From Psychrobacter lutiphocae DSM 21542 (GTDB lineage Bacteria > Pseudomonadota > Gammaproteobacteria > Pseudomonadales > Moraxellaceae): DNA of 64,000 nt. This document shows, piece after piece, positions 5,078-9,567 of this stretch. Numbering within the stretch: the stretch's first letter is position 1; each line of letters begins with the position of its first letter. The position numbers and the translations under genes were made by a program. The notes under the pieces are model-generated. The model saw only the letters and a list, made by a program, of their open reading frames with translations. It was not told the origin of the DNA and did not search any database. The stretch is from assembly GCF_000382145.1 (NCBI RefSeq), contig NZ_KB907638.1, positions 1-64,000 on the forward strand, in the 5' to 3' direction.

Positions 5078-5836
5078 ATGATAACGCCAAAAACCATCAA
5101 CCTTAGTAATATAAACTTTCTCGCCTTTGATTGTTACGGCAACCAGCAGCCTTTATTTTCTACAAAAGCTAAGATTTGGCTTGCCTCTGCATGCTTTGAG
5201 TCCTTAAACACAACATTAACGCAACAACAAAAACAAAAACTGGCAGTACGTAAGCTTGCCAGTAAATTGATAGCGCAGCTTTCAACACAAATCACTGCTA
5301 TTGAGATTTCTCAGGCAGTGAGTTTAGATGACTCTCACTATCCATATCGATTACAGCCTTTCGGTCATCGAGTCAGTTTTTCGCACTCTCAGCAGCAGGT
5401 GGCCTGCGCCATTACGTCATCACAGATGAATATCGGCATTGATGTAGAGTTAAATGGAGTTTCAGACAAGGTCTGTCAACGTTATTTTCATCGTAACGAG
5501 CTAAGCTGGTTACAGTTTTTGAAGCAACAGGGCACTATTGATGACGACGCCTTATGCCAACAAGCACGCCAGCTACTATGGATGCTTAAAGAAGGCTCTA
5601 TCAAAGCCTTTAACACAGGTCAGCTTATCTCTGGGCTAAAGACGGATGTCAGCTTACCAGCGCAACGCCTATTATTACAATATCAACAACACTTACAAGA
5701 TACCCAATCCTTTAACGCCACTACTGCCTTTTGTTGTACACAAAGTGGCACACCTCCCCTCCTGACAACAGGCTCATCTACTTATATTTATCTACCTTAT
5801 TTGCAGTTGGTAGTTGTGATGGCACAAGGTGACTGA
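5078..5836 (+). CDS. 4'-phosphopantetheinyl transferase superfamily protein
   Basis: A 252-residue protein of the Sfp-like phosphopantetheinyl transferase class. Family motifs are visible: VSFSHS (basic/His loop), the magnesium-binding GIDVE, and LWMLKEGSIKAF, equivalent to W..KEA..K. Such enzymes move 4'-phosphopantetheine from CoA to a serine of carrier proteins. The target is not evident because no polyketide, NRPS or carrier protein gene is nearby; fatty-acid ACP or lysine biosynthesis are possibilities. The ATG has no clear Shine-Dalgarno site. It follows the pal terminator and precedes the riboswitch-controlled ahcY, so it is probably monocistronic. Confidence 0.85.
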   Translation: MITPKTINLSNINFLAFDCYGNQQPLFSTKAKIWLASACFESLNTTLTQQQKQKLAVRKLASKLIAQLSTQITAIEISQAVSLDDSHYPYRLQPFGHRVSFSHSQQQVACAITSSQMNIGIDVELNGVSDKVCQRYFHRNELSWLQFLKQQGTIDDDALCQQARQLLWMLKEGSIKAFNTGQLISGLKTDVSLPAQRLLLQYQQHLQDTQSFNATTAFCCTQSGTPPLLTTGSSTYIYLPYLQLVVVMAQGD

Positions 5837-5987
5837 CAATAAGACGATATCTATTAAACAAGTAACTGTTGAATAAGTAACTATTAAACAAGTAACTGCT
5901 AAATTTTCACCCTTTTTCATCAAAACTTACCTTTAAGCAATCCGTTAAAGATGACTTTAACGAGCACATCCATTACAATATTGCCCT

Positions 5988-6161
5988 GCCGAGAGGTGTT
6001 GCATCAGTTGCTACTGTTCCAGCTATTTGTTAACCAGCTATTTGTTAAATAGCGGATTGGTTTTATTCATAAAACTTATTATCTGCAAATAGATAGAGCA
6101 ACTGTCAGGCTCGGTTAGTCAGAATGAATATGTGCTTTTTTACTGGCAAACAACGACACCT
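5988..6161 (+). promoter_or_regulatory. S-adenosylhomocysteine (SAH) riboswitch upstream of ahcY
   Basis: The leader matches the SAH riboswitch architecture. P1 pairs CCGAG (5989-5993) with CTCGG (6110-6114). The pseudoknot strand AGGTGT (5994-5999) pairs with ACACCT (6156-6161). The conserved TGCA follows at 6000-6003. P2 pairs CAGTTGCT (6005-6012) with AGCAACTG (6097-6104), and the conserved CAGGCTCG follows (6106-6113). P4 pairs TTAGTCAG (6115-6122) with CTGGCAAA (6143-6150), with an A-A mismatch. The pseudoknot bases differ from the usual GAGCGC/GCGCTC yet still pair. P2 carries an 84-base AT-rich insertion. SAH binding is known to raise ahcY expression. Confidence 0.88.
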
Positions 6162-6208
6162 GCGTTTCTTTTCCCCTTAATTTTTTTATGTTCACCAAGG
6201 AGCTCGAG

Positions 6209-7630
6209 ATGGACGCAGTGTCTAATATCGATTCAAAAACCAATTTAGAAAACTTCACAGATTACAAAGTAGCCGACATCAGCCTAGCTGATTATGGCCG
6301 TCGTGAAATCGCATTGGCCGAAGCAGAAATGCCAGCGCTAATGGGATTACGCAAGCGTTATAGTGAACAACAGCCATTAGCCGGTGCTAAGATTTTAGGC
6401 TGTATTCACATGACCATCCAAACCGCAGTACTTATCGAAACCCTAGTCGCTTTGGGCGCTGAAGTACGCTGGACGTCATGTAATATCTTCTCAACCCAAG
6501 ACCATGCTGCCGCTGCTATGGCTGCCAATGGTATTCCTGTATTTGCATGGAAAGGTGAGACTGAAGAAGAGTATGAGTGGTGCTTACGTCAACAGCTGTA
6601 TGTTGGTGGCGAAGAAAGTGGTCAGCTTTGGGATGCCAACCTAATTTTAGATGATGGCGGCGACTTAACCGCACTGATTCACAATGACTATCCTCAAATG
6701 CTAGAGACCATTAATGGTATCTCAGAAGAGACCACCACAGGTGTGCATCGCTTAATTGACATGCTAAACAAAGGGACGCTAAAAGTACCTGCTATTAACG
6801 TCAACGATGCCGTCACCAAGTCTAAAAACGATAACAAATATGGCTGTCGCCACAGTCTAAACGATGCTATCAAGCGTGGTACAGACATGCTACTTGCTGG
6901 TCGTCGTGCCCTAGTTATCGGTTATGGCGATGTGGGTAAAGGCTCAGCGCAAAGTCTGCGTCAAGAAGGCATGATTGTCCGTGTATCTGAAGTCGATCCT
7001 ATTTGTGCGATGCAAGCTTGTATGGATGGCTACGAGTTAGTTTCTCCATATATTGACGGCAACAACACAGACTCAGCCGACAGCATCAATACCCGTTTGC
7101 TACAAGATACGGATCTGATCGTGACTACTACTGGTAACTACCATGTGTGCGATAGACATATGCTGGCCGCCCTGAAACCAGGCGCTCTTGTTTGTAACAT
7201 TGGTCACTTTGATACTGAGATTGACACCCAATTTATGCGTGACAACTGGCGCTGGGAAGAGATCAAGCCACAAGTTCACCAGATTTATCGCTCAGATGAC
7301 AAGGATGACTACCTCATCTTGTTGGCAGAAGGTCGCTTAGTGAACTTAGGTAACGCCACTGGTCACCCATCACGTGTGATGGATGGTTCCTTTGCCAACC
7401 AAGTACTGGCACAGATGTATTTGCACGAGCAAAAGTTCTCTGAGCTATCTGCAGAAGAGCGTGCCAACGGTCTATACGTGAAAGTATTACCGAAAAAACT
7501 GGACGAAGAAGTGGCTGCGGCAATGGTTGCTGGCTTCAATGGTGTTATGACTAAGCTAACACCTGAGCAAGCTGATTATATTGGCGTCTCTGTCGAAGGT
7601 CCATTCAAGCCAGACGATTACAAATACTAA
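6209..7630 (+). CDS. ahcY: Adenosylhomocysteinase (S-adenosyl-L-homocysteine hydrolase)
   Basis: This enzyme splits S-adenosylhomocysteine into adenosine and homocysteine using bound NAD, removing the product inhibitor of methyltransferases. With the chosen start it has 473 residues, the normal length for the Pseudomonas-type protein. Family hallmarks include [13 protein letters not shown], the NAD-binding [13 protein letters not shown], and the C-terminal PFKPDDYKY ending. The ATG at 6209 is preferred over the in-frame ATG at 6188 because AAGGAG lies 6-7 bases before it. It sits under an SAH riboswitch and is followed by a strong terminator and metF, making a methyl-cycle cluster. Confidence 0.97.
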
Positions 7631-7790: not shown

Positions 7791-8642
7791 ATGACTAAGC
7801 CACAATTTTCTTTTGAATTTTTCCCAACCAAAACCGATGAAGGTGTTGAAAAGCTGTGCAACACCTTTGATACTTTAAACGAGCTGGCACCCAGTTATTT
7901 TTCAGTGACATACGGCGCTGGTGGTACCACACGTAAGCGTACTTTAGGTATTGTCGAAACTCTGCAAGCACGTAGCAACACTCCTATCGCACCGCACATC
8001 TCATGTATTGGTGATGATAAAAGTGAAATTGCTGAGCTACTCGATTTTTATAAATCCATTGACATTAACCGTATGGTTGCGCTACGTGGTGACTTGCCTT
8101 CTGGACAAGTGGGTATGGGTGAATTGCCATTTGCCGTTGATTTAGTACGCTTTATTCGTGAACATTCTGGCGATCATTTTCATATAGAAGTGGCTGCTTA
8201 TCCTGAAATGCACCCGCAAGCCAAAAGCTTTGATGCGGATATCCAAAACTTAGTCAACAAATTTGAAGCCGGTGCAAACTCAGCAATCACTCAGTTTTTT
8301 TATAACGCAGAAAGCTATTTATACCTGCGTGACGCTCTAAATAAGCGTGGTGTTGACTTAGATCAACATAAGTTGGTCGCTGGTATCATGCCGATTACCA
8401 ATTCAAGCAGTCTCATTCGCTTTGCTGACAGCTGTGGCGCTGATATTCCACGCTTTATTCGCAAACAGTTGGCCGATTATGGCGATGATCGCAAAGCCAT
8501 TCGTGAGTTTGGCTTTGAAGTGGTACATCGTTTGTGTGAGGTGCTTATTTCTGAAGGCGTTCCGGCACTACACTTCTACTCAATGAACCGAGTAGAACCC
8601 AATAAGCGCCTGGTTGAATCTTTAGGTTTGAGCAATAGCTAA
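7791..8642 (+). CDS. metF: 5,10-methylenetetrahydrofolate reductase
   Basis: A 283-residue FAD-dependent reductase that makes 5-methyl-THF, the methyl donor for methionine synthesis from homocysteine. The N-terminal SFEFFPTKTDEG, the VTYGAGGTTR strand and NRMVALRGDLP are typical of the MetF TIM barrel; ITQFFYNAESY and AGIMPITN carry active-site segments. Length is close to E. coli MetF (296). An AAGGACAGG site precedes the ATG. It follows ahcY directly, and its product remethylates the homocysteine that AhcY releases. Confidence 0.95.
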   Translation: MTKPQFSFEFFPTKTDEGVEKLCNTFDTLNELAPSYFSVTYGAGGTTRKRTLGIVETLQARSNTPIAPHISCIGDDKSEIAELLDFYKSIDINRMVALRGDLPSGQVGMGELPFAVDLVRFIREHSGDHFHIEVAAYPEMHPQAKSFDADIQNLVNKFEAGANSAITQFFYNAESYLYLRDALNKRGVDLDQHKLVAGIMPITNSSSLIRFADSCGADIPRFIRKQLADYGDDRKAIREFGFEVVHRLCEVLISEGVPALHFYSMNRVEPNKRLVESLGLSNS

Positions 8643-8694: not shown

Positions 8695-9567
8695 ATGCGC
8701 CGTTTTTTTTATTCATCCGACACACCCAACTTAAGCTTACAGCAGTTGCCTCTTGATAGTGAACTGCTATTAACAGACGACATTTATCATCACTGGTGCC
8801 GAGTGCTGCGTGCCAAAGTCGGTGAGCAAAGCCTTATCTTTGACGGCTTAGGCGGTAACAGCTTAATTGAACTGATTGAGGTTGATAAAAAAACAGCGAC
8901 TGCCCGTATCTTAGCCCATCATAGCAGTGACAATATTTCAACGTTTTACAGCAGTATTGCGTTGGTCATGAGCCGTGGCGATCGAATGGATTATGCGATT
9001 CAAAAAGCCACCGAGCTGGGTGCCACTGCCATTCAGCTGCTCACCAGCCAGCATGGTGAGGTGCGCTTAAAAGCCAATCAAGTGGACAAAAAACTCAATC
9101 ACTGGCAGCAAGTTGCCTTATCCGCCTGTGAGCAGTGCGGTCTCAATCGCCCACCACTTATCCTATCACCTGTCTCTATCGAAGAGTGGCTGCAAGGTAA
9201 AAAAGGTGATGTGCATGACAGCGTCCAGCTTTTAGTAACGGATGATTTTTATCAAGGCTTATGGCAACAGACTCCTGTCGCTTTAGTACTGGCTGTGCCC
9301 AGTCAGCAAGAAAAACAAACCCTAAATGTGGATGGCAAAATTCGACAGCAATTTAGCCGCTCTGTCACCACACAATCTCAGCACGCCCACCCTCGCTTTG
9401 ACTTACTCATCGGTGCTGAAGGCGGTCTATCTGAGCAAGAATATCAGCTGGCACGTGACGCTGGATACTTGCCTTGGCAGCTTGGCAATCGAGTTTTGCG
9501 TACAGAAACAGCGCCTGTGGTTGCCCTCTCTACTTTGCTGTATATCAGTACAGCTACTCTTGCCTGA
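8695..9567 (+). CDS. rsmE: 16S rRNA (uracil(1498)-N3)-methyltransferase
   Basis: A 290-residue SPOUT-class SAM-dependent enzyme that methylates N3 of U1498 in 16S rRNA. The N-terminal PUA-like part contains HHWCRVLRAKVGE. The SPOUT knot contains KATELGATAIQLL, the SAM-loop LLIGAEGGLSEQE and LGNRVLRTETAPV. Compared with E. coli RsmE (243 residues) it has an insertion of about 45 residues around 180-230, just before the knot. The start follows a GAAGG site. It lies 52 bases after metF and ends in its own terminator, so it may be co-transcribed with metF. Confidence 0.94.
   Translation: MRRFFYSSDTPNLSLQQLPLDSELLLTDDIYHHWCRVLRAKVGEQSLIFDGLGGNSLIELIEVDKKTATARILAHHSSDNISTFYSSIALVMSRGDRMDYAIQKATELGATAIQLLTSQHGEVRLKANQVDKKLNHWQQVALSACEQCGLNRPPLILSPVSIEEWLQGKKGDVHDSVQLLVTDDFYQGLWQQTPVALVLAVPSQQEKQTLNVDGKIRQQFSRSVTTQSQHAHPRFDLLIGAEGGLSEQEYQLARDAGYLPWQLGNRVLRTETAPVVALSTLLYISTATLA

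Follow-up and report, generated by a model that had tools for sequence, protein, structure and literature searches.

Analysis of the window, the whole stretch of 64,000 nucleotides of Psychrobacter lutiphocae DNA studied here, revealed an SAH (S-adenosylhomocysteine) riboswitch before ahcY, of a known type that senses this by-product of methylation and induces the enzyme that recycles it; its expression platform appears to lie within the gene that it controls. On balance, we find it probable that in some Moraxellaceae genera the expression platform of the SAH riboswitch is the coding sequence of the controlled gene, the 3′ strand of the pseudoknot serving both in the ligand-bound pseudoknot and in a stem formed with codons 2-5; the pseudoknot letters, the synonymous codons and the position of the start codon would then have co-evolved, and the peripheral arms, left unconstrained, could lengthen the leader to about 400 nt, which would keep this lineage out of sight of Rfam. 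This codon-pairing platform, which the first-pass annotation missed, is a better-supported new feature than the large P2 insertion to which that annotation drew attention; the insertion is also the less interesting of the two, and the platform is the testable part.

The aptamer, comprising P1, P2, a linker and the pseudoknot, occupies positions 5989-6161 of the forward strand, on which all features described here lie, and was delimited by a lineage covariance model and by conservation; its 3′ end lies 47 nt upstream of the ahcY start codon. P1 pairs CCGAG (5989-5993) with CTCGG (6110-6114) and shows compensatory changes in relatives, and the pseudoknot joins AGGTGT (5994-5999) to ACACCT (6156-6161) in six pairs, its 3′ strand being marked by both conservation and covariation. 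Between these strands lie the conserved TGCA (6000-6003), of which TGC is invariant in a 28-sequence alignment; the P2 5′ strand CAGTTGCT (6005-6012) and 3′ strand AGCAACTG (6097-6104), which covary; the variable P2 arm that separates them (6013-6096; 84 nt, 70% AT); CAGGCTCGG (6106-6114), conserved in the alignment of relatives, which includes the P1 3′ strand; and the linker from P1 to the pseudoknot (6115-6151), with a P4-like hairpin, which measures 37 nt here and 21-241 nt across the genus. The core letters GAG, TGC, AGGCTC and AAC, invariant in the 28-sequence alignment, are all found in the window, although the P1 of many Moraxella-like relatives departs from them (AAG/CTT). The P1 and P2 helices follow the order of the SAH riboswitch, with 100% and 91.3% of cells paired, respectively, across the 28 relatives.

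The aptamer lies upstream of ahcY and linked SAM-cycle genes, a feature of the SAH riboswitch class. The genes that follow the aptamer are ahcY itself (6209-7630), encoding adenosylhomocysteinase (TIGR00936 over cut-off); metF (7791-8642), encoding methylenetetrahydrofolate reductase (TIGR00676 over cut-off); and rsmE (8695-9567), encoding the 16S rRNA (uracil-1498-N3)-methyltransferase (NF008692 and TIGR00046 over cut-off). We place the true start of ahcY at the ATG at 6209 because this ATG, followed by G or A and then ACGCAGTGTC, recurs in every one of the 104 upstream stretches compared; by sequence, its Shine-Dalgarno element is AAGGAG at 6197-6202. The list of open reading frames begins ahcY at the ATG at 6188, 21 nt too early, and gene callers may annotate it likewise. 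Upstream, a consensus scan picked out a candidate σ70-like promoter, ATGACT-N17-TACAAT (5951-5979), that would start transcription close to P1; the scan found one such site where 1.6 were expected in shuffles, and TACAAT also stands just upstream of P1 in relatives. Pairing of the Shine-Dalgarno element with P1 or with the pseudoknot 5′ strand was discarded as a candidate, as it looked unconserved when inspected by eye.

Conservation across the genus was followed in 105 Psychrobacter genomes, of which 104 carry ahcY and one (G032, 89% complete) gave no match. Upstream DNA was taken from 103 genomes, which supplied 104 stretches because G102 contributed two, and then from G050, making 105 stretches from 104 genomes. 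The core and all six pseudoknot pairs were found before ahcY in every one of the 105 stretches, and so in each of the 104 ahcY-bearing genomes. Among the 104 stretches the pseudoknot takes the form AGGTGT/GCACCT in 79, AGGTGT/ACACCT in 23 and GGGTGT/GCACCT in two; G050 has AGGTGT/GCACCT. When the core pattern with a short P2 was scanned over a genome collection of 84,980 species, the seven matching stretches were all from Psychrobacter.

Comparison with other genera revealed covariation in the same helices. In the 28-sequence alignment 97.3% of cells pair, and the covariation score for P1, P2 and the pseudoknot was 0.471 as against 0.203 (sd 0.017) after shuffling, a value reached by none of 500 shuffles; structures slid along the same alignment scored 0.04-0.14. 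Double-sided pair changes numbered 9 as against 6.8 in shuffles, 2 of 500 of which attained that number; for further pair types, the weakest measure, 34 of 500 shuffles did as well as the alignment. P1 varies among CCGAG/CTCGG, CTGAG/CTCAG, TCGAG/CTCGA, CCAAG/CTTGG and GCAAG/CTTGC, with five standard pairs in 159 of 163 elements and four in the other four. The pseudoknot variants of the family include GAGCGC/GCGCTC, GGGCGC/GCGCCC, GAGCGT/ACGCTC, GGACGC/GCGTCC, GGATGC/GCATCC and AGATGT/ACATCT, and among 40 non-Psychrobacter elements (from the 86 non-Psychrobacter genomes with a match to the Rfam SAH riboswitch model, RF01057) six pseudoknot pairs form in 36 and five in four (g5 and g12). The first-pass annotation had described a pseudoknot changed on both sides yet still able to pair, and such compensated changes do occur family-wide. 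Because the family pseudoknot takes so many compensated forms, the recoded pseudoknot of the window can be regarded as ordinary evolution of the SAH riboswitch.

In these comparisons g1 denotes Psychrobacter, and the labels Moraxella-like and Acinetobacter-like, applied to g7-g16, were inferred from AhcY similarity. One Moraxella-like genome (G176, locus L222) carries ahcY, but no SAH aptamer could be recognised in the upstream DNA fetched. Six family genomes at least 99% complete (G148, G151, G177, G179, G203 and G209; five of g15 and one of g10) had no AhcY match at E 1e-60, so that some relatives seem to recycle SAH otherwise.

Detection of the element depended strongly on the covariance model used. 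RF01057 aligns to the whole element of the window with 18.8 bits (E 0.34), below the curated cut-off of 37 bits, and Rfam applied to the window at its gathering threshold gave no match. A search of the window's own genome with RF01057 returned nothing up to E 10 among the 150 of 217 candidates scored, the element probably having been lost at the first look. None of 100 Psychrobacter genomes exceeded the cut-off (best 34.5 bits), and 27 of 199 family genomes did. Matches at E up to 10 occurred in 47 of the 100 genus genomes and also in 9 of 14 control genomes; since such weak matches appear in controls, we relied instead on the DNA upstream of ahcY. A lineage covariance model was built without the window's nine-genome AhcY clade, on 28 sequences of which 16 came from Psychrobacter and 12 from relatives in other genera, and it scored the window element at 63.6 bits (E 1e-16), the next-best match in the whole genome reaching 17.0 bits (E 0.13).

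The proposal of the first-pass annotation that an SAH riboswitch precedes ahcY is thus borne out by the lineage model, with every element in the position then assigned to it. That annotation had also held that a covariance-model score below threshold would count against the riboswitch, and the RF01057 score does fall below; the same is true of all 100 Psychrobacter genomes searched, which indicates that the cut-off is unsuited to this lineage. A verdict from Rfam alone, which would be refutation, was rejected, as relatives share the core and the independent model scores high. We therefore read the low RF01057 score as a failure of model coverage and, from the sequence comparisons, take the element to represent a genuine and conserved lineage of a known riboswitch, one that scores below threshold. 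Both the low score and the variable arms could also be expected of a decayed, non-functional riboswitch remnant, but all helices are intact in the window, the six pseudoknot pairs persist in 105 of 105 genus stretches and relatives change letters with compensation, which makes decay extremely unlikely.

Comparison of the element with published descriptions placed it within the SAH riboswitch class. It resembles RF01057 in the order P1, pseudoknot, TGCA, P2, CAGGCTCGG, P1′, linker, AACG and pseudoknot, in its position before ahcY and in the link to metF; it differs in its pseudoknot (AGGTGT/ACACCT in the window as against the consensus GAGCGC/GCGCTC of the RF01057 alignment), in the long and variable P2 and linker of Psychrobacter and in its score below the curated cut-off, in the window as in the genus. 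SAH riboswitches are described as raising ahcY expression and as binding SAH about 1000-fold better than SAM (PMC7057144). Leyn et al. (2014; PMC4239095) predicted an SAH riboswitch in two of four Moraxellaceae genomes, the genes under its predicted control including ahcY, metF and rsmE, and the window likewise places ahcY-metF and RsmE (COG1385) under one Moraxellaceae SAH riboswitch; the two elements are very probably the same. The word Psychrobacter is absent from the main text of PMC4239095, and the recoded pseudoknot, the long arms and the expression platform are absent from the sections and passages of that paper compared. Among the papers searched, none pairs "SAH riboswitch" with "Psychrobacter". 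The SAM/SAH riboswitch RF01727 also has a pseudoknot and responds to SAH, but it is described from Rhodobacterales, almost always with metK (PMC7367207), and it gave no match in the window at the gathering threshold, nor up to E 10 in 5840-6300.

Folding of the DNA between the aptamer and ahcY revealed a stem that competes with the pseudoknot. Its 5′ arm, GACACCTGCGTT (6155-6166), includes the entire pseudoknot 3′ strand, and its 3′ arm, GGACGCAGTGTC (6211-6222), runs from the final base of the start codon through codons 2-4 of ahcY into codon 5, of which it takes two bases. Pairing of codons 2-5 with the pseudoknot 3′ strand and the GCGTT that follows it gives a stem of 11 bp that contains a single bulged C. 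Because this stem takes nearly the whole pseudoknot 3′ strand, the two structures are mutually exclusive. When the segment bounded by the pseudoknot strand and codon 6 is folded, the stem is present in the lowest-energy structure of all 104 stretches and of G050, with 7-8 of 9 positions paired in the 104; when the full leader was folded for 12 genomes, the stem formed in every one. The window duplex is predicted at −15.9 kcal/mol, a value reached by none of 644 upstream 13-mers (best −10.3).

Four lines of sequence evidence suggest that this stem is under selection. First, among 30 genomes with the whole ahcY sequence at hand, codons 3 (GCA) and 4 (GTG) are the only columns with a single codon among 119 invariant Ala, Val, Gly, Pro and Thr columns, and the third base of Ser 5, which lies outside the stem, varies. 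For amino acids with two codons, 5 of 119 ahcY columns use one codon, and in the control gene metF (14 of the 30 genomes, at most 250 codons) none of 53 columns does so.

Second, the pseudoknot 3′ strand agrees in its last base with the wobble base of the Ala codon. A last base T goes with wobble A in 104 of 104 Psychrobacter stretches, two of which have G as the pseudoknot partner (a G-U pair), and in 10 of 15 records of g7 and g10; a last base C goes with wobble G in all 24 records from g8, g9, g11 and g14-g16. The other five g7 and g10 records comprise four without the Ala codon, in which the stem is built differently, and G186, scored T/T through an upstream match, in which the codon is GCA. 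Third, arms pair better with their own partners than when exchanged between the T/A and C/G types: own pairing amounts to −15.4 kcal/mol in g1, −14.8 in g10 and −12.1 in g15, as against −9.9 and −8.7 for arms swapped between g1 and g15 and −7.1 and −9.0 for g10 and g15. This advantage is absent among the C/G-type genera, in which, for example, the g8 strand with the g11 start reaches −16.4 against its own −14.2.

Fourth, the 3′ arm survives in genomes that probably do not translate it, and in others a different sequence takes its place. In 10 of 20 Moraxella-like genomes of g7, g8 and g10, GGACGCAGTGTC stands between the Shine-Dalgarno element and a better-spaced GTG, 5′ of which it would probably not be translated, yet it is kept. 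In four of the 20 the stem is instead made of GACATCTG and CAGATGTC, with the ATG within the stem. The 20 genomes are drawn from the 27 of g7, g8 and g10 with ahcY, and 19 of them have the aptamer; start codons were assigned from Shine-Dalgarno spacing, and the sequences of G182, G163 and G166 were read by eye. In one Moraxella-like genome (G113, locus L224) the pseudoknot 3′ strand lies 227 nt from the ahcY start, with the arms still complementary; the distance is 46-95 nt in the other Moraxella-like records in which both were found.

Conservation at codons 2-5 could also reflect a constraint of translation initiation or of the protein, with the aptamer using another platform. Start regions are often conserved, two genomes (G031 and G100) carry TGCT in place of TGCG, an uncompensated mismatch in the stem, and the pseudoknot of the energy model opens neither the AUG nor the Shine-Dalgarno element. 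Against this, selection at starts usually favours weak structure, whereas the ahcY start builds a stem with z from −2.5 (window) to −4.4 in the six stretches tested; the only two fixed codons among the 119 columns both fall within the stem; and the motif persists where it is probably untranslated or gives way to another complementary pair. A constraint unrelated to pairing is therefore unlikely, and we favour selection on the stem itself. Both arms are almost invariant within Psychrobacter, so that covariation of the stem rests on differences between a few genera. The duplex is weak in G186 (−2.5 kcal/mol) and in g2-g6, g12 and g13 (−4.4 to −8.6), with the exception of G154 of g2 (−11.9).

In g4, g6 and g13 (loci L160 of g4, L173 of g6, and L157 and L177 of g13) an alternative downstream hairpin, GCTCGC..GCGAGC, also uses the pseudoknot 3′ strand, so that by these predicted folds the principle of a shared strand would extend beyond a codon partner. 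The folds of g13 and g6 contain another hairpin as well, whose 3′ end falls at the start codon or immediately before it.

We propose, with good confidence, that the element is a Moraxellaceae-type SAH riboswitch acting as an ON switch for translation of ahcY. Without SAH, the presumed ligand, the pseudoknot 3′ strand and GCGTT would pair with codons 2-5 of ahcY, closing a loop that contains the Shine-Dalgarno element and the AUG and hindering loading of the 30S subunit. Binding of SAH to the core of P1, P2 and pseudoknot would allow AGGTGT to capture the 3′ strand, barring the codon stem and permitting ahcY to be translated, and the 84-nt P2 arm and the linker would be peripheral, free to grow or shrink. 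The competing stem, as modelled, predicts that SAH raises expression of the downstream gene.

The energy model bears on this mechanism in part. With P1 and the pseudoknot held formed, the unpaired value for codons 2-5 rose from 0.01-0.17 to 0.36-0.54 in 12 of 12 genomes; the AUG became less open in 11 of the 12, and the Shine-Dalgarno element changed little, falling in three. In the free fold of the window leader the AUG is about half open (0.55). As the AUG is not opened in the model, release of the start would need the ribosome to open weak local structure, or else the model is incomplete.

Control of transcription by intrinsic or Rho-dependent termination, rather than of translation, would use the same aptamer. 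Most of the 104 stretches have a T-rich tract 3′ of the pseudoknot 3′ strand, and the GC-rich hairpin of g4, g6 and g13 on that strand could be a terminator stem. However, no terminator-like site was found in 5830-6250, the T-rich tract lies within the loop of the predicted stem and not after it, and the partner strand belongs to the coding sequence or reaches the start codon. Termination thus seems rather improbable, and we retain translational control as the preferred reading.

The proposed platform can be compared with that of the add adenine riboswitch, a translational ON switch with a hairpin that sequesters the ribosome binding site and AUG (PMC10907184), as both would form a sequestering stem in the absence of ligand that the ligand releases. 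The difference is that in the window sequestering would fall to the pseudoknot strand of the aptamer itself, with its partner in codons 2-5. A codon-pairing platform of this kind was not found in the literature passages compared, from PMC4239095, PMC2864571, PMC3766115, PMC10907184, PMC7057144 and PMC7367207. A switch whose switching strand is made of the regulated gene's own codons would be directly and cheaply testable by synonymous codon changes and their compensation. In addition, annotation by the Rfam cut-off misses a conserved regulator of SAH recycling, as it detects none in 100 Psychrobacter genomes when the element is present in 104 of 104 with ahcY.

Finally, the large P2 described in the first-pass annotation as unusual does depart from the Rfam consensus, although within its own lineage such a P2 is common. 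The segment from TGC to AGG ranges from 21 to 110 nt (median 57) in the 104 stretches, in which the window, at 103 nt, ranks second, and the linker from P1 to AACG is stretched further in relatives, ranging from 21 to 241 nt against 37 nt in the window. The 84 nt at 6013-6096 called an insertion are indeed there, but may reflect either gain in the window or loss in its nearest relative: in the closest genome of the AhcY tree (G035; support 91/88, 95% AhcY identity) nearly the same P2 stem has a 4-nt loop and the segment is 21 nt, and in the seven other genomes of the clade it is 64-100 nt. The natural length series of P2 and linker shows that these aptamer parts are extendable, which is useful for engineering.

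The arm could instead be a functional addition, such as a second sensor or a processing or protein site, that alters the switch. The minimum-energy fold does contain an extended arm, and its segment is the second largest of the 104, but the almost identical stem of G035 bears a loop of 4 nt, BLAST detected no similarity between the arm and those of 11 relatives, no second copy was found in the genome (best other match 31.9 bits) and its sole match to an RNA family, of 7 bits and on the opposite strand, is attributable to chance. Such a function is very unlikely, and the arm is most likely a passive, fast-evolving periphery. An origin from a mobile element was rejected, as the genome holds just short matches to the arm, none above that best score. 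Among the 12 genomes compared, G005, G056, G023 and G092 share arms, and the arm of the window has no alignable relative.

Within the arm lies a perfect tandem duplication of 15 nt, CCAGCTATTTGTTAA twice, at 6019-6048. A different repeat with a 15-nt period, 3.3 copies of TTAAACAAGTAACTG, lies upstream of the candidate promoter at 5854-5903. In G173 (locus L225) the linker between P1 and the pseudoknot reaches 258 nt and contains a GC-rich, repeat-like hairpin, perhaps a repeat element within the aptamer linker.
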